A DNA stretch of 64,000 nt from a virus, in the IMG/VR virus record IMGVR_UViG_3300032291_001823, positions 1 through 64,000 of that record. One strand, 5' to 3'. The notes below the pieces were generated by a model, which worked only from the letters and a program-made list of their open reading frames with translations, was not told the origin of the DNA and did not search any database. This document shows, one piece after another, positions 3,087 to 59,100 of the stretch. The translations under genes were made by a program, and so were the position numbers. The stretch's first letter is position 1. Each line of letters begins with the position of its first letter.

Positions 3087-3239
3087 CTATTGATTAGCTT
3101 GAACCTTATAGTAGTTAGAAATGTGTATTAGTCTTTCAACTAATTGTTCATCACTTTCTTTTGCTATAACTACAAGATCCTCATATTGAAGCTCATCACC
3201 AGAAAGCTCCAATATTGTGTCAATTAGATGTTCTCTCAT
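3087..3239 (-). CDS. Small acidic hypothetical protein
   Basis: This 50-residue frame (MREHLIDTILELSGDELQYE...) is acidic and probably all-helical, with repeated Leu/Ile spacing that suggests a two-helix hairpin. It sits tightly between the ParB-like gene (2-base gap) and the next gene, and keeps an intact frame with an ATG start and TAG stop. No family recognised. Confidence 0.55.
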   Translation of the reverse strand: MREHLIDTILELSGDELQYEDLVVIAKESDEQLVERLIHISNYYKVQANQ

Positions 3240-3240
3240 A

Positions 3241-4029
3241 TTATTTCATTGTTTTGAACTTCTCTACCAACCTTCCTTTTGCATTAATAGCAAGACTTAT
3301 ACAGTCTTTATTTCTTCTTAGCTTCTCAATAAAGGTTTTATGATTATAGTCTGTTCCTTCTTCTTTTACATACTTTATATACTCACTGCAGAAATACCTA
3401 TTCTCATAACGGCTCATTTTCATAACAACATTGAGAGCATCTTTAAGATATTCCATAAGAACGATTGCTCTTTGTTTGTTCTTTATAACAAAGTTGCCTG
3501 TTTTGATGAGTTTAGTTACATGTGCACCACTAGCAACTGTATTACCTGAGAAAACTGCTCCAATTATGCTAGCTTCTACATCGCTATATTTTCCAATATA
3601 ACTATTGAGCTCTTTGTAGTCATCTTTAAGATAAGACCAAGCGTCAATGTAATTGGTAAGAATCCAACTCTTAGAAGAATTGTTCAACATAGCAATAGTT
3701 TCTATTAATTCCTGTTGAGTTGCTATTTTAATAGTGATATAAGGAATATCAAAACCAAGTCTTTCAAGAGCTCTAAACATGTGCTGCCCATCAGCAACAT
3801 AAAGTTCAGGTTTACCAGTAAAGAATGCAACTTCTACTACAATTGCAGGTCTAACAACACTCAATTTCTTAACAGACTCATTAATAACATCAACATGCTT
3901 TGTATTCACACTTCTATTCATTAACCCTGGAAGAAAATGAATTTTTTTCTTTGATTTAGAACTGTACCATTTAAGATTGTTAAGAGCAAGTTTGTAAGAT
4001 TGATCTAAACGAAAATTGATTTTTTTCAT
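3241..4029 (-). CDS. ParB/sulfiredoxin-fold protein
   Basis: The ParB-like N-terminal fold is marked in this 262-residue protein by LYVADGQHMFRALERLG around residues 77-92, which corresponds to the DGxHR box (here DGQH, with Arg three residues later) used by ParB-type proteins to bind nucleotide. An Ile/Val-rich strand and a region following VRPAIVVEV complete the small domain; the C-terminal two thirds are helical and unassigned. Family members include CTP-dependent clamps, nucleases and kinases. In phages such proteins are usually not partitioning factors but act on DNA or nucleotides. There is no ParA gene nearby, so classical partition is unlikely. It is followed at a 2-base gap by a small acidic gene. 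Confidence 0.75.
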   Translation of the reverse strand: MKKINFRLDQSYKLALNNLKWYSSKSKKKIHFLPGLMNRSVNTKHVDVINESVKKLSVVRPAIVVEVAFFTGKPELYVADGQHMFRALERLGFDIPYITIKIATQQELIETIAMLNNSSKSWILTNYIDAWSYLKDDYKELNSYIGKYSDVEASIIGAVFSGNTVASGAHVTKLIKTGNFVIKNKQRAIVLMEYLKDALNVVMKMSRYENRYFCSEYIKYVKEEGTDYNHKTFIEKLRRNKDCISLAINAKGRLVEKFKTMK

Positions 4030-4046: not shown

Positions 4047-4880
4047 TTAAAAATTGGTTTCTAACTCTTTTTTTGCTTTCCTTGTATATCCTTCTTTTTT
4101 AAAGTCTTTAATCCAAATAAGTTTACGTCCCACTCTACCTTCTCCATGAGCTTGTAGTCTAAAATGACCTCTCACTTTAAAAGCTTCTGACTTAATAAAC
4201 TCTGTAAACCAAGTTGAGTCCATGATTTCTATTTGATGGTCGTTATCATTATGATATCTACATTTAAACAGTTCGACTTTTATTTTTGGCTGCAAAACTT
4301 TTACTTTTACATCTGCATATTTTCTGAAAAGTTCAAATGCTATTACAATTGTGTAATAAAATTCACAGACTTTTGAACTTAAACTGGCATCATCAACAGA
4401 AACATTATTAATAGAAGTGGTAATAGCCTCCATTCTAGATTTTTGTAAAGGATTTATAAAACTATTAGCTTTAAATCCTGAAACTTGTACAGTGTAAAAT
4501 AGTAATGTTGTGTTTTTATCAAAAGCTGCTATACAAAAGTCATAATCAAGAGCTTCTGGACGTTTTGTAAACCTATAATATATCACCTCGTTCATTAATA
4601 AAACTCCTGTATGAGAATCTTTACAGTCCAAAGATGTCCAGATTTTTTTATCCATTAACTTAGGTACAGCATTCATAAAAGCCTCATCAAATGAATTAGT
4701 CATCTTTCTGATAACTATAGGAGCATCATCTAGATTCATTACATCATTGATTCTTTTCTTTAAAACTGTAATAAGTTCCTCTTTTTTAGGAACATTTGCA
4801 AGAATTATATCAGCATATTCAGGAATACATCTTTTCTTGATCCAATTAATGACTGGTATTCTATTAATTTTTTGTTTCAT
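4047..4880 (-). CDS. Conserved phage protein, function unknown
   Basis: This 277-residue soluble protein has a long helical N-terminal half and a characteristic end: VRGHFRLQAHGEGRVGRKLIWI, then GYTRKAK. I recall the same HFRLQ...KLIWI...GYxRKA pattern in other Bacteroidota phage proteins of unknown function. The basic end could bind DNA or RNA, but no catalytic motif is visible. It is the first gene after a terminator at 4902-4934 and is preceded by a TTAAAACC motif eight bases or less before ATG 4880, so it probably has its own promoter. Confidence 0.75.
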   Translation of the reverse strand: MKQKINRIPVINWIKKRCIPEYADIILANVPKKEELITVLKKRINDVMNLDDAPIVIRKMTNSFDEAFMNAVPKLMDKKIWTSLDCKDSHTGVLLMNEVIYYRFTKRPEALDYDFCIAAFDKNTTLLFYTVQVSGFKANSFINPLQKSRMEAITTSINNVSVDDASLSSKVCEFYYTIVIAFELFRKYADVKVKVLQPKIKVELFKCRYHNDNDHQIEIMDSTWFTEFIKSEAFKVRGHFRLQAHGEGRVGRKLIWIKDFKKEGYTRKAKKELETNF

Positions 4881-37834: not shown

Positions 37835-37835
37835 T

Positions 37836-40605: not shown

Positions 40606-43248
40606 ATGGCTTCATTTACTGACCAAATAATGCAATTTAACCCATACGTTCAGCAATTGCCTGTTGAGGCAATGGCTAAAGTGGGTATGTATAAACAACA
40701 GAAGTATGAAGAAGGGGTACAGAAAATCCAAAGCTATATAGATAATGTGGCTGGATTGGATGTTGTTAAACCATTACATAAACAATATCTTCAATCCAAG
40801 CTTGATGAGCTTGGAGGAAAACTGAAGAGCGTAGCTGCTGGAGACTTCTCAAACTTCCAATTAGTTAACTCTGTAGGAGGAATGGCTACACAAATTGCAA
40901 AAGACCCCACAGTACAAAATGCAGTAGCATCAACTCAATATGTAAGAAAAGGACAGCAAGATATGGAGACTGCTAGAAAAGCAGGTAAATCTTCTGTACA
41001 AAACGAAGCATGGTTTAATAATAAAATAAACGGATGGTTAAATAACAATGACATAAATGCTTCTTTTTCGGACTATTATGTTGAATATACAGATATTGAA
41101 AAGAAGCTTAGGGATGTTGCAAAAGATGTCCACGAATACGATCGATCTATAGAAATGCCTTTCCAAAGAGATAATGGTGGCAATATTTTATATTTTGATA
41201 AAAATGGTAATGTTACAACTCCAGACAAAGGGCAGAGTAGGATTGATGAAGTGCTGCTAAAAACTAAAGTTAAAGGGAAATCTGCTCAAAAGATTCTTGA
41301 TAACTTTTACAGTAGTATTGATGAGAATGATAAAAGACAATTGAATATTGACGGTTGGTATCATTATAGAGGATACACTGGAGACTCGTTTAAACAAAAA
41401 ATAACAAGTGATATAACTTCTTCATACAATATGAAGAAAGACATACTATCAAAAGAAATTGTCAAGATATCAACAGAGCTCTCTGGAAATTCTAAGCTTA
41501 CAAAGGAACAAAGAAATGCTCTTACAGCAAAGATGAACGAGTATACAGATCTTGTAAACAAAGGTGGAATAGATAAAGAGCTTAGTGAGAAACTTAGTGA
41601 TATTGGTAGAATTAGCGATGATGAACTTAAGGGTTCAGTTTACATGGAAAAAACATTAAATAAACTGGCCACTGATATTTCCTACCAAGATATAGAAACA
41701 GAATATAAAGACAACCCTTACTTCAATGCATTGATGAAGAAGAAGGATTTAGCATTTAAATATTCAGAAGCTGTTAGAGACCAGAAGAATAAAGATAGAG
41801 ATTACGGGTTAAGTCTAGAAAGACTTAATATAGAAAAATTCAAGTTAACAAAAGATGCTGCTGGTAAAGATATTATATTCGAAAACTTAGGAACATCTAC
41901 AGATAAAACTCTTCCTACACTTGGGGATTTGCAAAATGGCATCACTGGTCTTGATGACGAAATGCAAAAGTTTAAACGAGAGAACGCTCCTTTTGTTATT
42001 TCAGGATATAACGAGATGAATGATGTTCAGAAAAGAGAGGCAATGAATAGCCTAGTTGATCAATACCTAGCAAACCCATCAAGCATCACTGATAATAACA
42101 AAAGAAAAATTCTTGATCAGTGGATTGGTATGCAAACTGATATGACTAGGAGAATGAGCAATTATGTAAACATTACACAAAAGGCAAAACCTTTTGACGA
42201 CGCAATTAATAATATTGCAGACTCTCTTCCTGGATATGTAAAAAATGGTACACAAATATATAGTGCTAAAGAAATCAGAAGTATAACTAGTGATATTAAT
42301 AGATTTACTTCTTCTTTACAATTAAACAAATTTGGAGTTCCTATTGGAGGTGGGGTGACAGATTGGGGTAAAATGAAACAAGCATACGCTAATTCAAAAT
42401 ATCTTCCAATAATTAATGTTATTGAGAAAAGACAAAAAAGTGGATTGGCATCATTAGTTGGTGAAGAAATGGAGATTGCAAAAACACTTGATAATATTCG
42501 TAGTCAAGTTAGAGAGAAATCAGCTAAGATTTCAAAAGATAAAGATAATTTTATTAATACAGAACTTGGAAAAATAATGCCTCAGTATCAAGATGAAGTT
42601 GGTACATTGGATAAAGAAGATAAGGTTACAATGGGAAAAGTTGATAATCTTATTGGTAACATGTATGGGATAGCAAGTCAACTTGGTGGAAAGATTGATT
42701 CTGAAAAGTTTGACCCTGCCACCATAACAGCATGGAGAACAGGTAAGCAAGCTAGTGATTTAAAATATGTTGTAAAGAGAAAAGCTGATATGTCTCAAGG
42801 AACTCTTCAAATATTTAATGGAAACGAAGTTCAAGAGATTCCACTTAACTCTAAACAACTAGGTAGATATTTTCCACAAGCAGCTAAAGGACATCCTCTA
42901 GATAGTGCGAAATATATGGTAATGAGTTCTCCTACAAAAACAACAAACGCAGCTGGAGTAGTTGATGGTGGACCATCTGGAGCATTAAATGCTGCATTTA
43001 CAGGAGATCAGCTTCCGCTATTGGCAGGAAGTAAATATTCAAGTTTGGTAAGATTTGACATTGAAGGCGCTTCTGACAACGATGGTGGAGACGACGATCT
43101 ATACCAAATTAGAATGTATGTAAATGATAATGGTATTTGGAAAGATGATGTTGTGAACAAAGAGGGCTTTGCAAAATTAGATGGTGTATTTGCAATTATG
43201 CAAAACATTGGTACAAAGAAATATCAAGAAATAAAAGATAGCAAATAA
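40606..43248 (+). CDS. Conserved crAss-like cargo protein
   Basis: This 880-residue protein begins ASFTDQIMQFNPYVQQLPVE and continues with a segment containing YLQSKLDELGGKL and GDFSNFQLVNSVGG; I recall these as hallmarks of a family conserved in crAss-like phages that lies directly before the RNA polymerase giant. It is almost wholly helical, lysine-rich and without signal peptide. In studied crAss-like virions proteins in this place are packed as cargo in the tail or capsid. It overlaps the giant by one base (TAATG), implying joint production. Confidence 0.85.
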   Translation: MASFTDQIMQFNPYVQQLPVEAMAKVGMYKQQKYEEGVQKIQSYIDNVAGLDVVKPLHKQYLQSKLDELGGKLKSVAAGDFSNFQLVNSVGGMATQIAKDPTVQNAVASTQYVRKGQQDMETARKAGKSSVQNEAWFNNKINGWLNNNDINASFSDYYVEYTDIEKKLRDVAKDVHEYDRSIEMPFQRDNGGNILYFDKNGNVTTPDKGQSRIDEVLLKTKVKGKSAQKILDNFYSSIDENDKRQLNIDGWYHYRGYTGDSFKQKITSDITSSYNMKKDILSKEIVKISTELSGNSKLTKEQRNALTAKMNEYTDLVNKGGIDKELSEKLSDIGRISDDELKGSVYMEKTLNKLATDISYQDIETEYKDNPYFNALMKKKDLAFKYSEAVRDQKNKDRDYGLSLERLNIEKFKLTKDAAGKDIIFENLGTSTDKTLPTLGDLQNGITGLDDEMQKFKRENAPFVISGYNEMNDVQKREAMNSLVDQYLANPSSITDNNKRKILDQWIGMQTDMTRRMSNYVNITQKAKPFDDAINNIADSLPGYVKNGTQIYSAKEIRSITSDINRFTSSLQLNKFGVPIGGGVTDWGKMKQAYANSKYLPIINVIEKRQKSGLASLVGEEMEIAKTLDNIRSQVREKSAKISKDKDNFINTELGKIMPQYQDEVGTLDKEDKVTMGKVDNLIGNMYGIASQLGGKIDSEKFDPATITAWRTGKQASDLKYVVKRKADMSQGTLQIFNGNEVQEIPLNSKQLGRYFPQAAKGHPLDSAKYMVMSSPTKTTNAAGVVDGGPSGALNAAFTGDQLPLLAGSKYSSLVRFDIEGASDNDGGDDDLYQIRMYVNDNGIWKDDVVNKEGFAKLDGVFAIMQNIGTKKYQEIKDSK

Positions 43249-46200
43249 TGGCAATTTTTAAAGAAGAGTTGATAACAAACACTCCTTTAGAAGGAGATCC
43301 TATTCCGCAACTTGCATTAGGTACTCCTCAATTAAGTGCTATGCCCACACTTCCAAATATTGAAGTTAGTGGAGGCTCTGTAAATAAATCTATAGAGGGT
43401 CTTGACTCTTCTCAATTATCAAAGCTTGCAAAACTTCCTGGACAAGGTGGTGGTGCTAATCTTATTCCGTTAAGTGAAGTGGCAGCTAACAAAAGATACA
43501 ACACTTATGTTAGAGGGATGGATCTTGAGAATATTTATGGAATGCAACAATCTGCATGGGCACAATTGGGAAATAGTGCTGTGAAAATGGCAGGATTGGC
43601 TGCAGGTACATTTGCTCAAAGTTTTGCTACAATTCCTAATACTATTTCTGCTTTTAAAAATGGTACAGCTGCTTTATCTGGAGGACCAGATAGTTATGAA
43701 GCTGCAATAGATGATTGGACAAAAAATCTAGAAGACTATTTTCCTAACTACTACACTAGAAAAGAAAAAGAAAATCCATATCTAGCAATAGTTCCTTTCA
43801 TGCCTGGAAGTGCTAATTTCTGGGGTGATAAAATTATTAAGAATCTTGGTTTTACAGCAGGAGCTATTGGTGGAGCTCTTGTACAAGATGCAATTATTGG
43901 AGCTGCTACAGAAGGAATTGGAGCTGCTCCATTGGTGGCATCTCAACTTGGTAAAGCTTCTTTGTGGTTAAATAAACTTTACGCTGGTAGTACAAAAGTA
44001 GATAAGGTTTTAGATCTTGCAAAAACTGTTGGAAAAACTGAACAACAAATTCTAAACATTAAACGTTTAGGAGAGATTGCTGCTGGAACAAAAGTAACAA
44101 ACGGATTTAGATATGGAATGGGCATATATGGCTCTTCTAGAACTGAAGCTGCAATTGAGGCTCGTGATGGATATAGGCAAGTGAAGGATGAGTTGATTAA
44201 AGAATATAAAAGTCAAAATCCTGGAAAAGAACCAATTAGTTCTGATTTAGAAGAAATTGAAAAATATGCAACAGATGCAATGAATACCAGATTTGGTATT
44301 AACATGGCACTACTGACAGTATCCAATGCTGTTCAGTTTGGAAACTTGTTTAAATCATTTACATCTGCTCAAAAAGGAATTAGCGGACAGCTCACAAGAG
44401 ATATAGACGAGGTTGGTAAAATTGGACTTAAGGAAGGATCGCTTGACTTGTTTGAAAGAAAAGGTGCTCAAACACTTTCTGGAAAAATCTGGGAGTCTGT
44501 ACAACCTAAATTGCCAAACATTCTGTCAGAAGGTGTATATGAGGAAGGTGGTCAATATGCTGCAGAAAAAGGAACTTATGATTATTTTACAAGAAAGTAT
44601 AAAAATCTTTCAAACCCATTATACAAAGATAACTGGAGCACCACTGTTGAAGCAGTTAATTCTACAGTGAAGGGACTAAAAGATCAATTTGGAACAGACG
44701 AAGGATTGGAGAACATGATTGTTGGTGCAATCAGCGCAATGATTAGTGGTGGAATAATGTCTAAAATTGATACAGTAAGAGGACAAGGATCTGATGAACG
44801 TTTGCAAAGTTCTATAAACATTCTCAATCAATATGGTCTCACTGGAGTGTTGAGTAGTAATTTTGAAAACACTTTGAACTCAGCTGGCATTGCTAAAGAG
44901 ATGGATGAGGCTGTAAAAGCTAATGACGTCTTTAAATATAAAAATCTTAAGAACGACATGTTCATCAACTTTGTACAATCACGTATTCCTTCAGGAATGC
45001 ATGAGGTTACAATTGAACAGTTGAGGATGTTGAAAGATTTGGATAAAGCTGAGTTTGAGAAGTCATTTGGTATGGACTTCAATTCTTCCAATAAGTCCAC
45101 TGTAAATGAATATGTAGATTCATTAATTGATGAAGCTAATCAAATTAAGAAGATTAGTGATTCAATTGATTTTACATTCAAGAATCCTTTCAAGAAGATA
45201 GACAACCCAACCACTACTGAAGAGGGAATTGAAACCTCACGTTTTAATGATTTCAATAAATGGAAAGCAGAGCTTACATTTCTTGCAGCAAAGATTCCAC
45301 ATGTAAATAACAGATTAGACTCTATACAACAAAGTGTCAATAGCATTAGTCCTATTGTTACAAATGATTTGCTTTCTCAATTAACAAACAAAGAGTCTCT
45401 TAAAGATCTTAGCACATCTTATGAGGAAAAAGCCAATCAGTTAAATAAAACTATTACAGAGTTTACATCTATACAGGATAAGAAAAGAATAAACAATCAG
45501 GTTAAGGCATTACGTACAGCTTCTGAAAGAATCAATCTTGGTTTGACAAATGGTGTAGATGGTAAATTATTTGATTATCTACTCAACTTTGAGCTCAATA
45601 ATCAAGACCCAACTGCTAGCAGACAAGTTGGTCCAGAGAATACCACTGACTTATTCACTTATGGTCATGACATTAATAGGCTCAACTCTCTGAAAGATGA
45701 TGTGTCTGAATTATACGACAATCTCACAGGCGAAAAAGGATTTAACAAATTCATGGACCAAGGAGAGCAGCTTCGTTCTGGTGCTATTCCTGAGGAAGAA
45801 GATAAAGAAGAAAAAGAGATTGTTGTAAAAGAAGGTCCTCAGTTTACAAATAAAGCTGGTGTTAAAGAAACATTTGAAGAGGGTAGAGAATATCAAATTC
45901 CTGCAGGAAAGAAAGCTAAAATTGATAAGATTGCTGATGATAGGTGGCAAGTGACTGCACCTGATGGTAACATCACCTTTTATGAATCTGAGGAAAAAGC
46001 AAAAGAACAAGTTGATTCTATAAATGAAGAATTTGGTAATCTTCAGAAAGCAAAGGTGATTGCTATCAATCCTGATGGTACACTGAAGGTGGAAGATATA
46101 AATGGTGACATATATAATGTCGATCCATCCAAGTTTGAGGGGTATGAAAAGGTAGAAACTGAGCAGGAGAAACTGCAGAAGTTTAAACAAGATGTAGAAG

Positions 46201-49200
46201 AAGATCAAAAAGATATAGAACATACATCTGGAACAATAGCTTCCAAAGAAAATACAGCAAAAACAAAAGCTGAGTTTGATGTAGAGAGTAAGAAGAAAGG
46301 AATTGAATGGTTATTTATATCAACTAGTGGTGCGTCTGAAGACTGGGAATCAGGTAAACTTAGTCCTAGTCAGCAACGTGCTATTACACTTAGGAACAAT
46401 TACAGAAACCTTCCTAACAGAAACAACCTCAGAATAATCCTTGTTACACAGAATCAAGAAAACTCTCTTGGTTTATCTGGACTGACAGCAATGTCAATGG
46501 CTAACACTGGTGTAGATTCTTCTACATACACAGACTTGAATGATGGATTTGTTGGTGCAGTGTATGTTGAACAAGATGGGGCTGATGTATATTTTGTAGA
46601 TAAGAGTGGTAAGAAACTTGGAAAGGTTGGTGATCCTGTGGACATTAATCAAGTGGTATTTGATACAATGCCTACAACAAGTCTTACATGGAGTGATAAA
46701 GAAAATAGGTATAGAGCTGGAGATGAGGATAAGGCACAAGAGTATTCAGATAGGTGGAAAGCAAAACGCAACCAACTGTTTAACACTCCAGAAGGAAAAT
46801 ATGAAATCTATAAGTTTTCTGTAAGCCCTGGTATTCCAGACATAGCAAACCTTAGCGATAACAACACTGTTGGTGAAACTCTTATTCCTGAAAATGAGAT
46901 TGTTTACCAAGAAGGACTTGTTGTAATCCCTACAACAGGAAATATTCAACACCAAGGACGCAACCTTAAGTTTCCTGATGGTGTTCCTGTTTTCCAATAC
47001 AGAGATGTATTGACATTCCTCAAGACACGTAAGTTCACTAAAGCTGAAGCACGAACTATTTTTGAGGTGATGAAAAAGATGTCTGAAGACATCAAACAAA
47101 AACTTGACCAAGGAAAGAAAATAAAGAGCAACAAGAAGTATACAAGGTTCCTTCAAAATGTTCTTTATTGGAGGAAATCACCAAAGACAGATAAGAATCA
47201 GATATTCATTGACTATGATACAATGGATTTCTTCTTTGGTGGAAAGAGATATGATTTGACAAACCTTGGTGCAAGTGAGGCTGAAATTATAGATCAGCTT
47301 GAGAATCTCTACGCTAACATCAATAATGACTCTCTTACAAAAAACTTTAGTGAGAAGTTTAATGAATATTATATTGATGAGTCTAAAAATCTTGCAACAA
47401 GAACATGGGATAATTATCAGTCTTATCTGTTGTCTTCAAAGTATCCAGATGGGTCTAATAGGTCAGTGGTAGACATTCCTTTGACAACTCCTATTCAGAA
47501 ACCTACAGAGCTTAAGCCTTTTAATTTCAAACAAAAGTATTCCATTCTTGAGGGAGTGGAACTTCCTTCTATTGAAGTGAAGCCTGTTGTTAAACCAGAA
47601 GCTCCTACAGCACCTGCTCCTTCTGGAAAGAAGATAGGTGATTACACCGTAGATGGTGTAACGCAAAACGTATACCAACTTAAGAACGGTCCTGTTGGAT
47701 TTACAGCCACTATTAAGGATGGTGAAGTTTTTGTAGAGGTTGAATCTAATGACACAATAAAGAAAATTACTGATAATAAGGATGCTCTTAACAATACAAT
47801 AATTCCTTTATTAAAAGCAGAAAAGAAATTTGATGCTACAGAAAAAGACGAACAGCATGTTCTTGGTTTTGTTTCTCTCAAAATAGCAAACGATTTACAA
47901 AAACAATTGAATGCTTCAGTTGCTCCTACAACAGCAGCTGTATTGCAGCCTGATGTTTCTCCTCTTGCACAAGTGCAAGGAACAGCTAGGACAGAGCCTC
48001 TTACAACAGCAGTTTCTACAGATGCTAAGACTGATATAGAAGAAACTGGAAATCAGTTACAGGTTATTCAAATGATGACTCTTCGTATAAAGTCTTTGTC
48101 CAAAGAAGAAAGAGCTTTGATGGACAAATACTACGATGTACTAAATGCTGAAGGTTTAAGGAATGGAAAAGAGTTGTCTGAACTGTATTATAAAGTTAAA
48201 AAAGACGGTAGTAATCCTGAGCTAGTAAAGAAGGTAGATGAGTTTCTTTCAGAAGTTAAGAAACTTCAAGCAGCTCCTGCTGTTACAGATGTTAAACCAA
48301 CTACTCAGTTTACTCAATCTTTTGGAGCCTTTACTGTCTATGAAGGAAGTGACGGATCATATGATGTACAAGATAATACTGGTGAAGGCATAATAGCTGA
48401 GTATGTTAAAACAAAAGAAGAGGCTATACTCATAGCTAAGCGAGCTGATATAGAGAAAAGAAAACAAGAAGAGATAAAACAAAAAGCTCCATACGTTTTA
48501 ATAAAAGGAAGCTATGAGGGAGAGAATAAGACAATCGGTACATTAACTTTCAAAAGTAATGTAGACAATATATATGCATACGATGAAGGAAGTACAAACA
48601 TATCTAAAGACGCACTAAGAGGTGATAAGAGACTTTCAAAAATAACTAAAGAACAATACGACGCTGCTATAAAAGCACCTGAGTTAATAAAAGAAATTGA
48701 GGCTGAATATAATGCAAAATTAGATGTCTTAGAAGGGATTAAACCTACTGCACCAACAAATTTTGGAGGAACTAAACCACCTCCTAATACAGAATATAGA
48801 AGAGTGGGTGCTGATGGAATAGAAAGAATTTCTAGTGAAGAGCTTGAGTTGTTCAAAGCTTGGGCTGCTGAAAAGGTTCCTACTATTCCATATACAGTGA
48901 TGGAGAATGTTCTTACAACACATGATGGTGAGAAAGCATGGGGTGCATTTGAAAATGGTGTTGCTAAGTTCTATAGGTCTGCAGCTAGAGGTACAGAATA
49001 TCATGAAATAGGAGAAGCTGTATGGAACGGTATGCTTTCTCCTGAAGAGCGTCAGGCTATTCTTGATGAAGAAAGACAAAAGTCTGGTAAGTTTAAAGAT
49101 AGACAATCAGGAAAAACTTATTCCTATGATGATCCAAATGTAACTGACCAGATGCTGAAGGAGAGAATCATGGATGATTTTGCTGAGTTTAGACTTGGTA

Positions 49201-52200
49201 AACTCCCTGCTCGTTCTCTGAAGGAGAAAGTTCTCAGATTCTTCAGAAGCATTATTGAATTCTTCAAGCAGTTTGTACAGAAACCTTCTATGAAGGAACA
49301 ACTGTTTAAAGCAATTGACACAGGTAGATTTAAAGAAAGAGTTATTTCAGAGAGCGCAAAGAATGAATTTGCTGAATATAGAGCTGTAGAAGGATTGACA
49401 GAAGAGCAAACTCATGACTTTGTACAGGATATTACAGCTCGTGTTTTTCAAATAGCATTTGGAACAAACATGTCTTTGTACAATCCTGAGCAAATTACAG
49501 CTCCTCAAATATTTGCAGAAATAAAAGAAAGCTATCAACAAGAAGGAAAATTAGATTTGCTTTCTGAAAATACATGGAGACAACTTATTGGTAAAACTCG
49601 TGACTTCCTTCGTACGTTCAAAATAGATTTTGATGAAGAGGGTGTTCTTGGTATAAACGATGAGAACTATAATAAGAATGATTATGCTCGTGAGGCATTC
49701 TCTACAGACTGGAAAAAGTCTTCTCCATTTCCTATCAAGTTAATCCTGGGTACATTAACAGAAACTGTACCAACAAGTCAGATAGACACCACTTCTTTGG
49801 ATCTTCCAAAACAAAAACTGTCTAGTGTAAATGGATATAAAATTCTAAACTTTGCAAGAACCTTTGCAACAGCTTTGGATAAGTTTGCAAACACCAACAG
49901 TGTAACAAAACTTGTAGACAAACTTATCGAACTGTCTAGATATGACAGTAATTACGTTCGCCTCTTCACTCGTCTGAAGGGAGATAGAAACACTGTATCT
50001 ATAGACTTCTCAAAGTTCGAAGAGCAAGACTGGAGACTGTTCATCAACTTCTACCAGACATTTACAAAACAAAAACCTAATGCTGTTATACAATATATAG
50101 GTGAAAACAATGAAGTGTATAATGGTGCAGCTAATCTGTTCAGTGCTGTAGAACAATTTAAACAGGGATGGATTGAGAATGTTAAGACGTTAGCAAATGA
50201 TAATACATCTCTGATATATTATTATTCTCCAGATAAGACATATAGAACAAAGAAACTGTCTGATATTCCTATTGGTAATCCTCAACAGATGGTTGAGTTT
50301 CTTGACAAGCTTGGTATAAACTTCCCATTTGAGGTGTATCAAAACCTTAAAGACCCTCAACAAAAAGCTTTTGGAAGAGCTATATCTGCAATACATAAAT
50401 ATGCAAGTGAGAAAGAGATAGGAAAGGTTACAGGAGAAACACTCACCATAAATGGTCAGCTGAACACTCTTGCAGAACTTTATATAAAAGCCACCAATCC
50501 AAATATAGATTCTACATATTTTGGTGTAGATGGTAAACGTCAGCAATCTTATGCTGATAGTAATGCACCTTCTGTATTTGAGAACACGTTTAATGAAATA
50601 GAAACACTTGACGAGCTTCTTTCTGCAAGACCTGAACTTAACGATGTATTCTCTAAGAACAGTTTGATTCTAAAAAAAGGAGGACCATTCTTTGACAAAG
50701 ATGGTAAACGTACAGATAGGAAATTGAAAGTGGGCTACATCCAAGGTACAAAAGATACAGTGGATGATAAAGGAACATCTACATCAAAGCTAGGACTTGG
50801 TAGTAGGTTTACACAAGAGTTTAATCAAAACTTGTCTGGTGACTACTATATTCTTATTCCTGCAGACGGATCTACAGAATGGATGCTCAATCTTGGAAAC
50901 CAAATAAGTTTTGAAGATTTTGAAGGAAATGAGGCAAATGATCAAATCCACAAAGTGTTCAGAGGTTATCTGGAAGATGAGATTGAACTTGCCCTGTCTG
51001 ACAGGTCTTATTTGAGAAATGTCAAACCTCGTGCAAAAGAACTTCGTTTCTTCAAAGATATTCTTTCTGAAAACCTTTTGACAAACTTAAACAAGTTAAT
51101 AGAAAAAGGTGACAAAGAAAAAATCAAAGAGTTCATTGATGAAAATATTTCTGAGATAAATGCAAACATAGACGACTATGTAAATGGTACAGTGGATGAT
51201 TCAATTAGAGATTTTAAAAATAATAGTCAGATTTTCCAAATTAATGAGGATGCTTATTCATTCCCATTAATGAATGATAAGTTTGCAAAAGAGCAAGATG
51301 TTAATAAATATAACATGTCTGAGGATGAGCTGAAGGCATTGTTCAAATTTGCAAACACCAATTACATCATAAACAATATTGAGTTCCATAAGATATTGTT
51401 TGGTGATCCTTATCAGTTTGCAATTAAAGAAAATCAACTGGATGAGACAAAACGTATCAAATCATTCCTCTCTCCAAGAAGAGTGACATTTGATAGCCCT
51501 GAGTTTAACACATGGTTGAATAGTAAGAATAAAGCAGGAGACATTTCTCTCTTACCTGGAGATCCTGGTTACCATGTACATAAAAGTTACACTTCAACAA
51601 TCACCACTGCTGACGTAAATATTGTTGGTAGTATTGCTATGATGGAAGGTGTTCCTAAAGATATAAAAGATGCTTATGCCAAAACAAATGAGGCAGATGC
51701 AGCATCTATATTGATGGACACTACATACAGAGAAATCAAGAATAAGAACGGACAATGGAGTAGGGAAGCTGAAGATTGGCATCAGTGGCAAATGGCTTAT
51801 ACAAGAAACAGGATGTCTGCCAAAGGATTGTACACTTATACAAATGACAATCTTAAAAAACAAGATGAGAAAACTATATCATCTCCTTCACCTAAACATA
51901 CATTAGAGATATTGAAACCTATTGTGACTGGTAGTAAACACAATAAGAACACTATCGATCTTGTGTTGGATAAGTTTTCTCAAATGCCCATGTATTATAG
52001 CATGATTGAGGGAACCAATCTAGAGAACCTCTATCTGAAGATGATGAAGGAGGACGTAGGATATACAATAATGATAAGTGGTAGAAAGGTTGGAGCTGAA
52101 AGTCTTCATAGTTTGTACAATCAAGATGGCTCATTTAATCAAGAAGCTTTCAATAATCGAATTGAAGTTCCTTGGAAGGCTTATGGTATTCAAGTGGAAA

Positions 52201-55200
52201 CTACAACAGAAGACGATAAGTATCAAACAAGAGGATCTCAGCTTACTAAAATGTCAAGCATGGATCTCTTTAGCAATGGTGAACCTCTTAGTAAAAATCC
52301 TGAAAGACAAGCAGTTATAAGAAAAGCTTATGATAGGAATAAGGATATTCTTGACAAGATGCATGAGAATTCTTATTATGAGCTTCTTAATAAATTAGGA
52401 GTTGAAGACCTTGGTGATAGTTTTAATGTAGTGGATAGGAAGAAACTTTCAGAATCTCTTGAACATGAGATGCTTAGAAGGGAGCTTTCTGACAATGCTA
52501 TTGATACTGTTAGAACTGATGAGAACGGTCAATTCAGAATACCATTTGAATCATCTCCTGCATACACACAGATAAGAAGTCTTATGTTCTCTATGGTGGA
52601 CAAAGCTCTTGTTTCTCCAAAGATGAGTGGTGGTGCACACGTACAGGTTCCTGTTACACTCTGGGAATCTGCTACAAAAGGAAGAAGCTTGGCTTATAAA
52701 ACCAAAGATGGTTGGAAAAAGATAACCAAAGAGGCATATGATAAGCTAGATGATAATGAGAAGAAGAAGGTGGCTCTTACAGATGACACTCTTAAGTTCT
52801 ATACAAAGGATGCTCCGTATTGCGAAGTGATGATTCCTCATTGGTTCAAAGACAAGTTTCCAAAAAACAAATTCAAGACAGATGAAGATATTCTTAACTA
52901 TCTGAATAATACAGAAGAGGGTAGGAAGATTCTTACAGGTATAGGATTTCGTATTCCTACACAGGCAACAAGTTCTGTTGAGGTGTTTAGGGTGAAAGGG
53001 TTTCTTCCAAAATATATGGGAGCAACAGTTATTGTACCTTCTGAAATCACCACTAAGTCTGGATCTGACTTTGATATTGATAAACTCAATATGTACCTGA
53101 AGTCTGTATACGTGAATGCAAGAGGTGAGGTTAAGTTGATAAAATATCTAGGATCTGAAGGAAAAACAAAAGAATTCTTTAGAGGTGAGTTTGATAGGAT
53201 TCTTGAAGGTAAAGCAGTTAAGAAAGCTGAACTACTTGAGGCAGTTGATATTCTTGCATACAATTTAGCAGATCCGAAAAACCTTCTTAAGAGGTATGAT
53301 GGTATTTTGAATGTACTTTTAGAAGAGTATAACGATATTTCTGATTTGGCAGATTCTCTTATGAAGGATTTGGAAAAACTTGGAGATGAGTCTGTTCAAG
53401 CTGATCTTAAAGAAAAGTTTGTAAACCAAGCATATAAGCAATCCCTTGAGAATGAATATTACGAATCTCTTGAAGAATTGCTCACTCTTCCTGAAGTGTT
53501 CCAAAGATTAATATCTCCTGTAAGTGATGGTGGTCTTAAGAAACTGTCTGAAAGACTGGATGAATTAACAGGTTTTGACGAGAGTAAGATTAAGAACAGG
53601 CTTCTTAACAGAAGCTATATGACTGCTCTCAGACATGCTTTTGTATCTGCAAAGAAATGGGTGGGTATTGCTGCTGTTAATATTACAGGACACTCATTGT
53701 TCCAGAAGTCTCAAATATATCTTGACCCAGAAAGATTTGCATTTTTACCAAAGAGAGACAAAGAACTTCTTGGAGATGGTTCAGTTGTTCTCCCTCACAA
53801 CACTGTTGTTGTAAATGGAAAGACATACGTATCAATGTCTGGAGCAAAGACTGAAGATGGAACACAATACATATCTGATAGATTGTCTGGATATGGTACA
53901 TCCTTTGTGGATGTTGCAAAAGATCCATACATCATGAAGATTATAAAGAGTGAATTGGTTGTTGGTACATTTATGTATCTTGAGAGAATTGGTGTAGGTG
54001 AGAAAGCTGCAATGTTCTTGAATCAACCAATCATTGCTAAATACCTTAGCCATCTGGACAGCATTGGTTATAAAAACCTATTCAACAAAGGTAATATAAC
54101 TAATGCCCTGGAATCTTTTCCTTCAAAAGGAGAAACATTTAGGGCAGCAGGTATAGATGTAAATTCTCTTGGGAGTAATATTGAGAAGTATTACAAAAAT
54201 GGTGGTAAGTTTGACACAGACATAGACAATGCTGTTCAGCAAAAGATATTCTTTGAGTTCTTGAAATATGCTAAAATGGCTGAGTTCAGTTTCAACCTCA
54301 CTCAAGGATATAACTACGACACTACTAGATTTGGTAGTGGTGACGCTCTATTCAGAAAACAAGTAAAAACCCAGAAAGCAAGAGATAAAAATATATTCTC
54401 TTCTATAGATAAGGTTTTTGATACATCATTTATTGGTGAGCAAGCTTTTTTAATTGACAAATCTACAGAAGCATTAGGAGAATATCTAAAGCTTGAAAAT
54501 CCAAAACTGAGAATAATAAGCGACAGTGTTCTAAGACCGTTTGCTGAAAACCAGTATTTGTCAGCTGACGATTATGAAAGGATAGGAAACAGGATTACAT
54601 CATCTTTCCTAGACTTCATAATCCAAACCAAGACAACGCTAAGTGATGAAATAAAAGAACTATTGGTAGATCCTGCTACAGCTGTAGCTACACAACTTGC
54701 TGAAGCTCAGGCTAAGTTTCCTGAAAACAAGTTGTTGAATGAACTGCAGGTGGTTAGTTCTGATAGGTTTGATGGAGCAAAAAGCATCAAGCTTAGGACA
54801 AATGATAAGTCTGCATACAGTGAAAATCTCTACCAAGGAATGTTCAGACAACTCAGAGACACTCCTGAGACAAATGCTTTATATAATAATATTGTAAAGC
54901 TGGCTATTCTTCAAGGAACCTATCAGAGTGCAATATCAATAAGGAATGTAATTCCTATTGAAGACTTTAGTAAAACAATTGCTCCAGTTATTGCAAATCT
55001 TGTAGCCACTCCTGAAATAGAAGCATTTGCAAAAGGAGCATTCCAAAGAAACAATTGGAAGAACCAAGATGTATGGAGAACAATTTCTCCTAAGTTTTTT
55101 GTAAACGATGAACCTATTGGACAAGTTGAGACGTACAGTGGTGATGTTATTGACATCTATCAATACAACTCTCCTGCATTTCCAAATGTTGCAAATCTGA

Positions 55201-56144
55201 ATATAAAAAGTGAAGATAGAAAAATCCTTACACTGAATGAGGCTTATAACTATCTCGATGTACAAAGAGACTTCCTTTTAGTTCCTGCTGTTGTTACAGA
55301 TAGAAAGACTGGTGATATGATTGACGTTGAGTCAGGAACCACTATGGCAAAATCAATGATTGCTCAAATGAAAGCAAAAGGTGATATGTCATACAAGGAT
55401 GTATATGGTTATCAGAAGGTGAGATATGATAATGGAGATCCTGTTCTTACATATGATAAGGATGGAAATGCAATACACATTTACAAACTTATCAATCTAT
55501 ATGGAGATGGAGTGTTTGCTTCTGAGTATTATAGTGTAAACAAACCTTCTGTGTTCAACAATGGTACAAAGAAGATTGATAATGAGATTCCTAACGCAGA
55601 CATTATTAACTACTTTGCTCCAAGAACAACAGATCCTAAACCAATAGCTCCTACTCCTATAGAACCTAAACCTGCTGAAGAACCTAAGAAGAAAGAACTA
55701 TTCACTCCAGAGAAAGGAATTGCTCAGAAATCATTCAGAGGCAAGCCGTTGAACTTTGTAGACAAGATTCCTACACAAAAGGAAACAGTTGTTGCAATGC
55801 AGAACAATAGACAAACTGGTGTAATCACTATAGATTATAAAGCCATGGTTCAAAAGTTTGACGATAAGGCATGGACTAAACCAGCTAAGCAACTCGATGG
55901 ATCTTTTGCTACACCTTTAGCTGAAGATGCATTTAAAAGTGCAGAGGAATGGTTTACCTTTGCATTGATTCATGAAGTGAAGCATGATACAATTTTTAAA
56001 GAACCAGGAGAGACAACAGGACAATACGAGGATAGGATTAATCAAGCTGCTATGAAAGACCTTGAGGAAAACTATACAAAACCTCCAGTTGTAGATAATT
56101 TTCCTGACAAGAATTTGAATGTTAAAGATCAAAAATGTAACTAA
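43248..56144 (+). CDS. Giant virion protein with RNA polymerase and zincin-like domains
   Basis: A 4298-residue fusion. Residues 1-400 resemble crAss-like cargo (YVRGMDLENIYGMQQS near 90, Gly/Ala hydrophobic stretches at 100-240). A zincin-like region follows near H1919-E-I-G-E1923 with a downstream helix DFAEFRLG. Residues about 3100-3300 carry the two double-psi barrels of a single-chain RNA polymerase: SPKMSGGAHVQ with K3125, R3235-I-P-T-Q3239, and the metal-binding D3274-F-D-I-D3278. The last two compare with R-x-PT and DFDGD of bacterial beta'. A full HExxH (H4242-E-V-K-H4246) lies near the C-terminus. In phi14:2 this polymerase enters with the DNA and transcribes early genes. No frameshift or stop interrupts the frame. 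Cleavage into smaller proteins is possible but no site is known. Confidence 0.93.
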   Translation: MAIFKEELITNTPLEGDPIPQLALGTPQLSAMPTLPNIEVSGGSVNKSIEGLDSSQLSKLAKLPGQGGGANLIPLSEVAANKRYNTYVRGMDLENIYGMQQSAWAQLGNSAVKMAGLAAGTFAQSFATIPNTISAFKNGTAALSGGPDSYEAAIDDWTKNLEDYFPNYYTRKEKENPYLAIVPFMPGSANFWGDKIIKNLGFTAGAIGGALVQDAIIGAATEGIGAAPLVASQLGKASLWLNKLYAGSTKVDKVLDLAKTVGKTEQQILNIKRLGEIAAGTKVTNGFRYGMGIYGSSRTEAAIEARDGYRQVKDELIKEYKSQNPGKEPISSDLEEIEKYATDAMNTRFGINMALLTVSNAVQFGNLFKSFTSAQKGISGQLTRDIDEVGKIGLKEGSLDLFERKGAQTLSGKIWESVQPKLPNILSEGVYEEGGQYAAEKGTYDYFTRKYKNLSNPLYKDNWSTTVEAVNSTVKGLKDQFGTDEGLENMIVGAISAMISGGIMSKIDTVRGQGSDERLQSSINILNQYGLTGVLSSNFENTLNSAGIAKEMDEAVKANDVFKYKNLKNDMFINFVQSRIPSGMHEVTIEQLRMLKDLDKAEFEKSFGMDFNSSNKSTVNEYVDSLIDEANQIKKISDSIDFTFKNPFKKIDNPTTTEEGIETSRFNDFNKWKAELTFLAAKIPHVNNRLDSIQQSVNSISPIVTNDLLSQLTNKESLKDLSTSYEEKANQLNKTITEFTSIQDKKRINNQVKALRTASERINLGLTNGVDGKLFDYLLNFELNNQDPTASRQVGPENTTDLFTYGHDINRLNSLKDDVSELYDNLTGEKGFNKFMDQGEQLRSGAIPEEEDKEEKEIVVKEGPQFTNKAGVKETFEEGREYQIPAGKKAKIDKIADDRWQVTAPDGNITFYESEEKAKEQVDSINEEFGNLQKAKVIAINPDGTLKVEDINGDIYNVDPSKFEGYEKVETEQEKLQKFKQDVEEDQKDIEHTSGTIASKENTAKTKAEFDVESKKKGIEWLFISTSGASEDWESGKLSPSQQRAITLRNNYRNLPNRNNLRIILVTQNQENSLGLSGLTAMSMANTGVDSSTYTDLNDGFVGAVYVEQDGADVYFVDKSGKKLGKVGDPVDINQVVFDTMPTTSLTWSDKENRYRAGDEDKAQEYSDRWKAKRNQLFNTPEGKYEIYKFSVSPGIPDIANLSDNNTVGETLIPENEIVYQEGLVVIPTTGNIQHQGRNLKFPDGVPVFQYRDVLTFLKTRKFTKAEARTIFEVMKKMSEDIKQKLDQGKKIKSNKKYTRFLQNVLYWRKSPKTDKNQIFIDYDTMDFFFGGKRYDLTNLGASEAEIIDQLENLYANINNDSLTKNFSEKFNEYYIDESKNLATRTWDNYQSYLLSSKYPDGSNRSVVDIPLTTPIQKPTELKPFNFKQKYSILEGVELPSIEVKPVVKPEAPTAPAPSGKKIGDYTVDGVTQNVYQLKNGPVGFTATIKDGEVFVEVESNDTIKKITDNKDALNNTIIPLLKAEKKFDATEKDEQHVLGFVSLKIANDLQKQLNASVAPTTAAVLQPDVSPLAQVQGTARTEPLTTAVSTDAKTDIEETGNQLQVIQMMTLRIKSLSKEERALMDKYYDVLNAEGLRNGKELSELYYKVKKDGSNPELVKKVDEFLSEVKKLQAAPAVTDVKPTTQFTQSFGAFTVYEGSDGSYDVQDNTGEGIIAEYVKTKEEAILIAKRADIEKRKQEEIKQKAPYVLIKGSYEGENKTIGTLTFKSNVDNIYAYDEGSTNISKDALRGDKRLSKITKEQYDAAIKAPELIKEIEAEYNAKLDVLEGIKPTAPTNFGGTKPPPNTEYRRVGADGIERISSEELELFKAWAAEKVPTIPYTVMENVLTTHDGEKAWGAFENGVAKFYRSAARGTEYHEIGEAVWNGMLSPEERQAILDEERQKSGKFKDRQSGKTYSYDDPNVTDQMLKERIMDDFAEFRLGKLPARSLKEKVLRFFRSIIEFFKQFVQKPSMKEQLFKAIDTGRFKERVISESAKNEFAEYRAVEGLTEEQTHDFVQDITARVFQIAFGTNMSLYNPEQITAPQIFAEIKESYQQEGKLDLLSENTWRQLIGKTRDFLRTFKIDFDEEGVLGINDENYNKNDYAREAFSTDWKKSSPFPIKLILGTLTETVPTSQIDTTSLDLPKQKLSSVNGYKILNFARTFATALDKFANTNSVTKLVDKLIELSRYDSNYVRLFTRLKGDRNTVSIDFSKFEEQDWRLFINFYQTFTKQKPNAVIQYIGENNEVYNGAANLFSAVEQFKQGWIENVKTLANDNTSLIYYYSPDKTYRTKKLSDIPIGNPQQMVEFLDKLGINFPFEVYQNLKDPQQKAFGRAISAIHKYASEKEIGKVTGETLTINGQLNTLAELYIKATNPNIDSTYFGVDGKRQQSYADSNAPSVFENTFNEIETLDELLSARPELNDVFSKNSLILKKGGPFFDKDGKRTDRKLKVGYIQGTKDTVDDKGTSTSKLGLGSRFTQEFNQNLSGDYYILIPADGSTEWMLNLGNQISFEDFEGNEANDQIHKVFRGYLEDEIELALSDRSYLRNVKPRAKELRFFKDILSENLLTNLNKLIEKGDKEKIKEFIDENISEINANIDDYVNGTVDDSIRDFKNNSQIFQINEDAYSFPLMNDKFAKEQDVNKYNMSEDELKALFKFANTNYIINNIEFHKILFGDPYQFAIKENQLDETKRIKSFLSPRRVTFDSPEFNTWLNSKNKAGDISLLPGDPGYHVHKSYTSTITTADVNIVGSIAMMEGVPKDIKDAYAKTNEADAASILMDTTYREIKNKNGQWSREAEDWHQWQMAYTRNRMSAKGLYTYTNDNLKKQDEKTISSPSPKHTLEILKPIVTGSKHNKNTIDLVLDKFSQMPMYYSMIEGTNLENLYLKMMKEDVGYTIMISGRKVGAESLHSLYNQDGSFNQEAFNNRIEVPWKAYGIQVETTTEDDKYQTRGSQLTKMSSMDLFSNGEPLSKNPERQAVIRKAYDRNKDILDKMHENSYYELLNKLGVEDLGDSFNVVDRKKLSESLEHEMLRRELSDNAIDTVRTDENGQFRIPFESSPAYTQIRSLMFSMVDKALVSPKMSGGAHVQVPVTLWESATKGRSLAYKTKDGWKKITKEAYDKLDDNEKKKVALTDDTLKFYTKDAPYCEVMIPHWFKDKFPKNKFKTDEDILNYLNNTEEGRKILTGIGFRIPTQATSSVEVFRVKGFLPKYMGATVIVPSEITTKSGSDFDIDKLNMYLKSVYVNARGEVKLIKYLGSEGKTKEFFRGEFDRILEGKAVKKAELLEAVDILAYNLADPKNLLKRYDGILNVLLEEYNDISDLADSLMKDLEKLGDESVQADLKEKFVNQAYKQSLENEYYESLEELLTLPEVFQRLISPVSDGGLKKLSERLDELTGFDESKIKNRLLNRSYMTALRHAFVSAKKWVGIAAVNITGHSLFQKSQIYLDPERFAFLPKRDKELLGDGSVVLPHNTVVVNGKTYVSMSGAKTEDGTQYISDRLSGYGTSFVDVAKDPYIMKIIKSELVVGTFMYLERIGVGEKAAMFLNQPIIAKYLSHLDSIGYKNLFNKGNITNALESFPSKGETFRAAGIDVNSLGSNIEKYYKNGGKFDTDIDNAVQQKIFFEFLKYAKMAEFSFNLTQGYNYDTTRFGSGDALFRKQVKTQKARDKNIFSSIDKVFDTSFIGEQAFLIDKSTEALGEYLKLENPKLRIISDSVLRPFAENQYLSADDYERIGNRITSSFLDFIIQTKTTLSDEIKELLVDPATAVATQLAEAQAKFPENKLLNELQVVSSDRFDGAKSIKLRTNDKSAYSENLYQGMFRQLRDTPETNALYNNIVKLAILQGTYQSAISIRNVIPIEDFSKTIAPVIANLVATPEIEAFAKGAFQRNNWKNQDVWRTISPKFFVNDEPIGQVETYSGDVIDIYQYNSPAFPNVANLNIKSEDRKILTLNEAYNYLDVQRDFLLVPAVVTDRKTGDMIDVESGTTMAKSMIAQMKAKGDMSYKDVYGYQKVRYDNGDPVLTYDKDGNAIHIYKLINLYGDGVFASEYYSVNKPSVFNNGTKKIDNEIPNADIINYFAPRTTDPKPIAPTPIEPKPAEEPKKKELFTPEKGIAQKSFRGKPLNFVDKIPTQKETVVAMQNNRQTGVITIDYKAMVQKFDDKAWTKPAKQLDGSFATPLAEDAFKSAEEWFTFALIHEVKHDTIFKEPGETTGQYEDRINQAAMKDLEENYTKPPVVDNFPDKNLNVKDQKCN

Positions 56145-59100
56145 TGGCTTGTAGATTAGATGTTAGAAAAGCAATATTAGACAATGCCTTTGATGAAGCT
56201 TTTGAGGGTAGGTATACATTTACACGTATGTCAGACGACACTGTCAGAATAAATGGTCAAGTGGATGCTGCACAAACAAAGGCTTTAAGTAGGAACCAGG
56301 CTATTAACATAGCTAATCAAAAACTAGAGTCAATCAAGAAATCATTCAATAATGCAATAACTGGATATGTTACAAACAGATCTGAGTATGATCCAGTTAC
56401 AATTACATTAAACGTTAATCCAGCATACATTGAATATGAATATAGGAAACTACCATTAGATAAACAAACTGATCCTGCAGATAGAATGTTTCAGCTTCCA
56501 GGAACAGAACTATCAAAAGCTTCTCCTGAGACAATCAAACGTATTAAAGAACTCCTCAATAGGATAGGTGTTGATTATCAAGTTGTTAGCAAGATAGCTG
56601 TCAATGGTAAAATAATTGGTGCAAACGGTGTTGCTGATATAACACAGAAGCTTATTCAAGTGGTGAATGGTAAAGAAGCAACAGCGCTTCCTGAGGAAGC
56701 TATGCACTTTGTTGTAGAAATCATCCAACAAACAGATCCTAAACTCTTCAGCACTCTTCTGAAGGAGATTAATGGATATAGGATGATGAAGGATGTATTT
56801 GCCACATACAGCAGCGATCCCAACTACCAAACAAAAGAAGGTAAACCTGATGTAATAAAACTCAAGAAAGAGGCTATTGCAAAGGTGCTTGCTGAAACAG
56901 TTATAAATAAGTCAGAAGGATCTATAGAAAATCCAGAGAATGTTGCTAAGGTGGAGAGTTGGTGGCAGAAAATAGTTAACTATCTAAAAGGATTGTTTAA
57001 TAAGAGTGGGTTTGACACAGCAGCAATGAAGATTATCTCTGGAGAAGAAATTGGAAGTGTAGATGATGTTAGAAATAAAGAAGCACAGATATACCTACAG
57101 AAAGGTACTAGAGATTCTATATATGAAAAGCTTAAAGACATTTCTTCAAAGATTGAAAAAAAGGACGACGGATATTATATAGATGGTAAGAAGGTGCCTA
57201 GAAGGGTAACTGATCTTGTAAAAGATTGGTATGAGAGAAGGTTTAAAGCTAAAGATCTTACAAAGAATGAATATCAAACGGCTTTGTTTGATTTAAAGGC
57301 AGAGAAGGGAACAGCTGGTCATGCTGATCTTGAATATGCTTTTACTGTATTTGTAAACGAAGATGGATATTTAAGAACCACTCCACTTGATGATAGTGGA
57401 TATGTTTCCCAGCTCAATCCAGATAATAGGGATATGTACGAGCTTTTGAGAGATAACTTAAAAGAACGTCTCAACTCTTTTCCTAAAGAGAATGGAGGAA
57501 CAAGATTCTTGTCTGAAATAATGACGTATGATGCTAAACGTGGACTTGCTGGTACAATAGATTTCTTGGCAATTGAACCTGATGGTAAAACTAACATCCT
57601 GGACTGGAAGTTCATGGATTTGAATGTTGACAAATATACAGATGTTCCTTGGTATAAGGTGAATGCTTGGAGACAGCAAATGGAGCAATACAAACTCTTG
57701 TTGGAGAAAGTTTATGGGGTTAAACCACAAGACTTTAAGCAGACAAGAATGATTCCAATCAAGGCTAAATATGTTGGTGGAAATGTTAAAGAAGGAATCT
57801 TACCTACACTTTCAGGTATACAGATTGGAGATGTTAACGTAAAAAATGTTAAGGAGGATTACTTATTACCTGTAGGACTAGAAGGTGAAAAAACAGGAAA
57901 CAAAAAGATTGATGCTCTCCTGGAAAAACTAAATGCTGTATACAAAAAGATGTCTGAAAAGAAAGCTCTTCCTAGTGAGAAGCTTAATAAGGCTGAGCAA
58001 TTGAATGCTCTCTTTTCTGCTATTAGGCAGCTTCAGATTAAACAAAACATCAAACCTTTGTTGTATCAAGCAAAGGTGTTAAATAAACAACTGAATAAAC
58101 TTCTTGAGCAATACCAAACAAACTGGAAAGGAAAAGATGTCAAATCTTTCTCTCAAGAACAAATCAGCGCTTTCTATGATGAATTGGAAAATGCATACAA
58201 TTCAATATCACATTACACTACATTAGATACAGAACTTAAGTTTCTATTCCAAGGAGAACTGTCTGAAGAAGATAAAGCACTTAGAGAAGACTTAAGAGAT
58301 ACAGTTGATGATGCAAGAGGTATATTATCAGAACTATCTGAAGTGTCAGGAGAGTTTGTAGAAGACTTTGTAGCTGGATCTGAAGGAGTAGAGAACTTCC
58401 TCACTCCTGAGAAGGTGATAAAGGGTATAACAAAATGGTTTTCTTCTACAGCTACAATTCCATTAAAAGCTTTGGAGGTGCTGTATAAAAAAGCAAATAG
58501 AGCATTTACATATGCTGCTCAAGATACAATTGTTGAAACCAAAAAACTCACGAACATCAAATCTAAATATGATGAGTGGGCAAAAGGTAAAGGGTTGTCA
58601 TCTAAAAACTATTTCAGCTTTATAAAGAAAGAAAAGTCAAATGAGCTTATAGATGAGTTTAATCCAGAATTCTATAAAACTCTCAGAACAAAGATTGGTG
58701 AGAAGGACATTCAGTGGATTAAGAACAATATAAATGTTGCAGAATATACAGACTTTCTTAAAGAAAAACTGAAAGAAGATTTACAACGTATCCAAGATAA
58801 AGCAAGGGTGGGAACTGATGAGGAAATACAGAAAGAGATAAAAAGAGAAATTGCACAAACTAAATCTTTATACGACACATCTACAATAGATTCAGCTGGA
58901 TGGTATAACTATGACCTACTTAAAAAGTTTCCTGACAGAACTACTTGGGAATCAAATGAATGGAAACAACTTAATAAGACTGAGAACAAACCAGCTCTTG
59001 ATTTCTATAATTATATTAAAGAAAGGAACGAATACTATCAGGAGATAGGATATATCAGTAAGGCTGAGGCTAGGGTGTTTCTACCTTTTGTTCGTAAAGG

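Follow-up and report, generated by a model that had tools for sequence, protein, structure and literature searches.

How do several large proteins leave a phage in a fixed order through a narrow tail? In this work we have approached this question at one locus of a Crassvirales genome, within a window of 64,000 nucleotides (positions 1 to 64,000 of the 93.5 kb IMG/VR record IMGVR_UViG_3300032291_001823). Downstream of genes matching the Crassvirales capsid (Crass_capsid, 1.6e-27), muzzle (crAss_MUZ, 1.2e-40), portal and terminase, the plus strand carries a frame of 4298 codons without a stop (43248-56144), which overlaps each of its neighbours by one base: the upstream gene ends at 43248 and the downstream gene starts at 56144. 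Is this frame a genuine gene, of what parts is it composed, and must such a long chain be cut on its way out of the virion?

The fused gene and its modules

Could the frame be an artefact of assembly or annotation in which several genes were merged into one? In IMG/VR we found 12 loci which cover most or all of the chain, with best segments of 45-99% identity, and in most of them the frame is uninterrupted, with lengths of 3655-5004 aa. Intact frames are present in the independent contigs L002 (4372 aa), L004 (4206), L005 (3794), L006/L010 (5004), L007 (3937), L008/L012/L013 (3655) and L011 (4484). The isolated Flavobacterium phage FpV4, whose genome is complete, has a 4287-aa version annotated as a virion structural protein, and the version of cr118_1 has 4946 aa. 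In favour of an artefact, the 99% identical locus L003 is split near residue 2657, where a homopolymer is longer by one A; as this break carries no cysteine, it looks like an error. Because the same frame is intact in independent contigs, mis-assembly is very unlikely; we reject the merging of genes and consider its chance practically negligible, and the single uninterrupted gene of the preliminary description was thus borne out. A megablast search against phage records did not find a close relative of the window. Length and fusion alone are not new, since fused giant RNA polymerases (RNAPs) had been described in Crassvirales before, and a review mentions crAss-like RNAP genes as long as about 6000 aa (PMC10136315).

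Judged by homology, the gene is modules A and B of a three-module Crassvirales virion cargo, fused into one chain (Table 1). Residues 92-697 match crAss001 gp47 with E of about 1e-18 to 1e-24 (tblastn/blastp). The homology of module A rests on the matches to crAss001 gp47 and to the cyanophage Lbo-JY46, as a profile of separately encoded A proteins gave no match to it at 1e-3. In module B, residues 2639-3599 match the RNAP of phi14:2 (PDB 6VR4, E 1.6e-18, phmmer), and a profile of separately encoded B proteins matches at 1e-68. The core is of the two-barrel DxDxD type and not of the T7-like single-subunit type of the N4-like virion RNAPs. It had been proposed from the first reading that the frame fuses a cargo part with an RNAP, that its N-terminus resembles separate cargo proteins of crAss-like phages and that the polymerase barrels lie near residues 3100-3300; all of this agrees with the matches to gp47 and 6VR4 and with the position of the DFDID motif. 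Pfam and PHROGs searches of the fused protein gave nothing above the cut-off. The linker between A and B is where the family alignment loses coverage (to 0.08-0.3) and identity collapses. The next gene, module C, matches the C profile with E 7e-233. In phi14:2, modules A, B and C are gp078, gp077 and gp076 (record numbering), which together have about 5400 residues; in crAss001 they are gp47, gp50 and gp49, all three of which are present in the virion (PMC10172136).

Table 1. Features of the fused gene and its neighbours (positions in the window, residues in the respective protein)
Feature	Residues	Positions	Strand	Basis and remarks
880-aa cargo-like protein		40606..43248	+	ORF; directly upstream of fused gene; no Cys
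Module A	1-1560	43248..47927	+	Virion RNAP-associated protein, homologue of crAss001 gp47
Pro/Ala-rich hypervariable linker, A-B junction	1561-1822	47928..48713	+	Family alignment; no Cys
Zincin-1-like domain	1829-2069	48732..49454	+	Alignments, motif, AlphaFold model
HEIGE motif of zincin 1	from 1919	49002..49016	+	Second zinc-ligand His replaced by Glu
Module B	2169-4009	49752..55274	+	Single-chain virion RNA polymerase; phmmer, B profile
DFDID catalytic motif	3274-3278	53067..53081	+	Sequence; kept in all aligned relatives
Zincin-2-like domain	4136-4279	55653..56084	+	Alignment, motif, model
HEVKH motif of zincin 2	from 4242	55971..55985	+	Only canonical one of the two HExx[HE] sites
Cys4297	4297	56136..56138	+	Sequence; penultimate residue of fused protein; proposed link to module C
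Module C	1645 aa	56144..61081	+	RNAP-associated virion protein, homologue of phi14:2 gp076 and crAss001 gp49
Cys3 of module C (MAC...)	3	56150..56152	+	Only Cys of module C; proposed disulfide partner of Cys4297

The same arrangement is found in described phages. Like the window, phi14:2 (gp66, PDB 6VR4) and crAss001 (gp50) have the DxDxD motif in a homologous core of about 960 residues, flanked by A and C and downstream of muzzle and cargo genes; in both of them, however, A and B are separate proteins with cysteines at the end of A and the start of B, whereas in the window they form one chain whose border has no cysteine. FpV4 gp32, its homologue in the Flavobacterium phage FPSV-S29 and cr118_1 gp14 are single A+B fusions (4287-4946 residues) with a terminal cysteine, as in the window, and the next gene, C, begins with MAC or MIC. 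They belong to other lineages of the order than the window; FpV4 lacks zincin 1, while cr118_1 has a canonical HEAFH.

Some further observations concern the neighbourhood. The 880-aa protein has 30% identity to a Lbo-JY46 protein at the equivalent position. The gene at 37809-40517, two genes upstream of the fusion, has a possible glycine-zipper stretch (residues 202-241, E 0.003, below the cut-off), and its start may be GTG. Module C gave weak matches to a phage exonuclease (411-529, E 0.0016) and to tape-measure families (23-179, E 8.6e-6). The 5004-aa protein of L006 (10001-25012) has several hundred additional residues, placed after the RNAP and before zincin 2.

Zincin-like domains and self-cleavage

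Does the chain cut itself? The preliminary description had pointed to two zincin-like sites which could do so. Judged by motif and alignment, zincin-like sequence is indeed present at both, although only the second site is canonical and the first is degenerate. HExxE replaces HExxH at zincin 1 throughout the subclade of the window except in L009/L011, while the presumed third ligand, E1972, is invariant in alignments of 30-32 relatives. The usual zincin 1 motif of A+B fusions is YHEAFH, in most of them about 1300-1550 residues before DxDxD. AlphaFold models of zincin 1, for which L017 and L014 were left out of the alignment, and of zincin 2 had moderate mean pLDDT values (75.6 and 73.7). Neither gave a significant match in a fold search against the PDB (best for zincin 2, YbeY, E 0.25), so the assignment rests on the motif, the third ligand and known annotation. 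Zincin 2 lies within B in the window, L004, L006 and FpV4, but in L007, phi14:2 and many others C starts with it; the gene border thus moves around this domain.

A general proposal that zincins process polyvalent proteins was made by Iyer et al. 2017 (PMC5512222), and it may be that in these phages both zincins cut the polyprotein where modules meet, either inside the head or once it has been ejected. Across the order, zincin domains do lie at the A-B and B-C borders, p-crAssphage gp45 is annotated as an RNAP-associated protein fused to a zincin protease in the homologous region, and in raw counts an intact zincin 1 was present in 38 of 47 fused and 11 of 59 separate cases (Fisher p 1e-10). 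This association was gone once relatedness was removed, with about 1.0 independent tree contrasts for it, 1.1 against and 2.9 showing no difference, and a tie between zincin 1 and fusion was rejected. Besides the degenerate site in the clade of the window, an intact HExxH is absent from both the A+B chain and C of the fused relatives L005, L008, L012 and L013, and zincin 1 is missing from the fused FpV4 and FPSV-S29. Conversely, Intestiviridae and crAss001 retain zincin 1 even though their A and B are already separate. Domains of this kind also occur in a phage head protein and in plasmid ArdC and TraC1, polyvalent proteins which are packaged or transferred without being processed (PMC5512222). 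Cutting by the zincin domains would thus be neither general nor tied to fusion, it is not supported by our comparisons, and we regard self-processing in the virion as quite improbable.

Nor does the passage of so long a chain, of about 480 kDa at full length, through a short tail demand cutting, a question which the preliminary description had raised. N4-type virion RNAPs of about 3400-3500 residues are ejected through a tail of 30-45 A, for which unfolding was proposed (PMC12633501). These coliphage enzymes resemble the protein of the window in being giant injected RNAPs with an HExxH domain, and they are free of cysteine (PMC3715699, PMC3915230, PMC12633501). They differ in having a T7-like polymerase fold and in consisting of one chain without terminal cysteine partners. 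Polyvalent proteins of phages and conjugative elements are likewise very large injected multidomain chains with zincins and RNAP; they differ from the window in that zincin processing is not supported here, and the terminal cysteine rule described below was not found in the passages of that article which were consulted (PMC5512222).

Cysteines at the open junctions

The strongest signal at this locus, absent from the preliminary description, is the terminal cysteines. We surveyed 114 nonredundant relatives, setting broken genes aside for the junction counts. Where modules are encoded separately, a cysteine was found at the start of B in 53/53, at the end of A in 48/49, at the end of B in 101/101 and at the start of C in 96/96 cases; when each protein keeps its cysteines but their places are shuffled, the expected numbers are 0.58, 0.37, 0.99 and 1.00, respectively. 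The only miss, at the end of A in L024, has its cysteine 32 residues from the end. The outer ends behave differently (0/48 at the start of A, 3/92 at the end of C), as do the start of A+B fusions (1/44) and the end of the gene before them (0/40). Nearly all apparent exceptions are broken or displaced genes. The survey shows, at the level of sequence, an order-wide rule: a cysteine lies on both sides of every separately encoded A-B and B-C junction and is not found in this way at outer ends or fused borders. A literature search, which did not cover the structural paper on the phi14:2 RNAP, found no earlier account of terminal cysteines in Crassvirales.

These cysteines stand out in proteins which otherwise nearly lack them. 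Of 51 separate B proteins 46 have exactly two cysteines, and of 46 A proteins 45 have exactly one. The cysteine density of the module interiors is 4e-5 to 4e-4; in the same loci it is 0.0027 for the other genes on the same strand and 0.011 for those on the opposite strand. Their distance from the ends varies (positions 2-8 from the start, 1-12 from the end). In phi14:2, A has only its last residue (1797), B has residues 3 and 2179 of 2180 and C only residue 3; in crAss001 the positions are 2339 of 2341 (the only one in A), 5, 1334 and 2404 of 2412 in B and 5 in C. The fused protein of the window has Cys3192 and Cys4297, and FpV4 gp32 has a single cysteine, at 4286 of 4287. The tail that carries Cys4297, ending in DQKCN, is predicted to be disordered (pLDDT < 50 for the last 19 residues).

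The modules occur in four architectures, all of which obey the rule; the last two were examined after it had been stated. Where all three are separate (phi14:2, crAss001, DAC15, cr111), cysteines are present at both junctions, and where A is fused to B (the window, FpV4, FPSV-S29, cr53, cr130), only at that of B with C. When B is fused to C (p-crAssphage, Rudgehvirus, crAss002), they are found only between A and B. p-crAssphage has the same three modules as the window, with the zincin at the end of A, and its gp44 is annotated as an RNAP catalytic subunit fused to an unknown RNAP subunit; here B is joined to C and not to A, and the cysteine pair lies between A and B instead (residue 1956 of 1957 in gp45, MSC at the start of gp44). 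Finally, fusions of all three modules (L131, about 7430 codons; L168, 5547) have no terminal cysteines.

In a tree built from 120 RNAP cores, the state changed at least 7 times at the A-B junction and at least 3 times at the B-C junction. On supported branches the cysteines followed the open junction in 5/5 and 3/3 independent contrasts, respectively, with none against; owing to the small number of supported contrasts, neither sign test reaches p 0.05 alone (0.0625 and 0.25). Eight fused proteins have some cysteine in a broad junction region of 700 residues, mostly in lineages richer in cysteine, and some gut-phage lineages (L164, cr130) retain many internal cysteines.

Several single loci deserve mention. 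The L131 gene, present whole in a record of 97,237 bases (G001), is the longest in the set and has one cysteine. The annotated start of crAss002 gp33 (L179, 12242-12340) is probably 32 codons early; the likely start is MSCTPSN, with the cysteine as residue 3. L096 (7373-19364), L092 and L147 have a B gene that breaks into two frames past DxDxD; in L096 these are separated by about 3.5 kb, and the second piece starts with MGC and ends in cysteine. Is this an intron, a frameshift or a new split? Each of the three could account for the break. In the cyanophage Lbo-JY46 (PP438436; L016, 17578-30484), an A-like protein has its only cysteine as the last residue (1552), and the next protein, of 2748 aa, has its only cysteine at residue 4. 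This second protein ends with a C module and contains two HExxH motifs, but an RNAP could not be recognised in it. The same kind of junction is present here in a cyanobacterial phage, apparently one without the polymerase.

Possible role of the terminal cysteines

Since the cysteines are lost in pairs on fusion and there are none at the two outer ends, head-to-tail pairing of A with B and of B with C is indicated. A disulfide would be the simplest chemistry for such links. We hypothesize that A, B and C are held in the virion as one covalent string, an arrangement to which we give a probability of about 0.65. In this string, modules would follow one another in the order A-B-C, joined by a peptide bond where the genes are fused and elsewhere by a disulfide between the C-terminal cysteine of one protein and the N-terminal cysteine of the next; in the phage of the window, Cys4297 would pair with Cys3 of module C. 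Its passage through the tail would run from N to C, with fixed order and a 1:1:1 number, and reduction of the disulfides in the host cytoplasm would then free the parts. The near-total lack of other cysteines would prevent wrong pairing during passage. Fused modules would not be released in this way and may work joined, or be cut. That the RNAP machinery is ejected in this manner throughout Crassvirales, fusion and disulfide being interchangeable and release depending on redox conditions, seems to us slightly better than an even bet; we found no earlier description of such a mechanism.

As the cytoplasm in which virions assemble is reducing, the disulfides would need to arise in the periplasm or after lysis. 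The surroundings of gut phages are reducing as well; this and the many internal cysteines of the L164 and cr130 lineages count against disulfide links. On the other hand, disulfides are present in the tail of crAss001 virions, of which both reduced and non-reduced samples were analysed by mass spectrometry (PMC10172136). For crAss001 the linked tryptic pairs are predicted to be ICGANTLYEL-S-S-CAIIPQVR for gp50-gp49 (computed M 1992.017, 2+ at 997.016) and CNS-S-S-CITTNSTIEELAAK for gp47-gp50 (computed M 1812.823, 2+ at 907.419). For the N4-type RNAPs it was proposed that the lack of any cysteine eases passage (PMC3715699, PMC3915230). The general avoidance of cysteine in the Crassvirales modules would fit this idea, and the retained terminal pair would be the new part.

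Could the terminal cysteines serve something other than each other? They might bind another partner (the portal, the tail, DNA, a metal or another copy of their own protein) through tails which are lost on fusion. Homodimers are possible, as about six copies of each protein have been suggested per virion (PMC10172136). Against such partners, the cysteines disappear in pairs on fusion and are absent or rare at the outer ends; the cargo protein adjoining A has no terminal cysteine, and a metal site cannot be built from one cysteine per end alone. We consider this explanation unlikely. Much less probable still is that the cysteine codons act as a signal in the DNA or RNA which couples translation where starts and stops overlap. 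Many open junctions do read TGT-stop/ATG-TGT within a few bases, but the distance from the ends varies, some of the genes are hundreds of bases apart, and no cysteine marks the junction with the cargo gene upstream, which is just as tight. Moreover, crAss001 and DAC15 encode A on one strand and B and C on the other and nevertheless keep the pair, and on this gene order we rejected the coupling signal. Split inteins, which terminal cysteines also bring to mind, were rejected because the cysteines lie a few residues from the terminus and leave no room for an intein domain.

Meaning for the Crassvirales

The crAss-like phages are more common in the human gut than any other viruses. While giant fused RNAPs were already known in this order, we found no earlier account of the terminal cysteine rule, and it bears on how several large proteins make an ordered exit through a narrow tail. 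About 300 open gene ends follow the rule, which is switched off exactly where genes fuse, and it makes the order, the stoichiometry and the mechanism of release directly testable in two cultured phages and perhaps in existing mass-spectrometry data. If the covalent string linked by disulfides and peptide bonds is real, it would explain how the RNAP genes of these phages can, apparently without harm, range from three proteins to a single chain of about 7430 residues.
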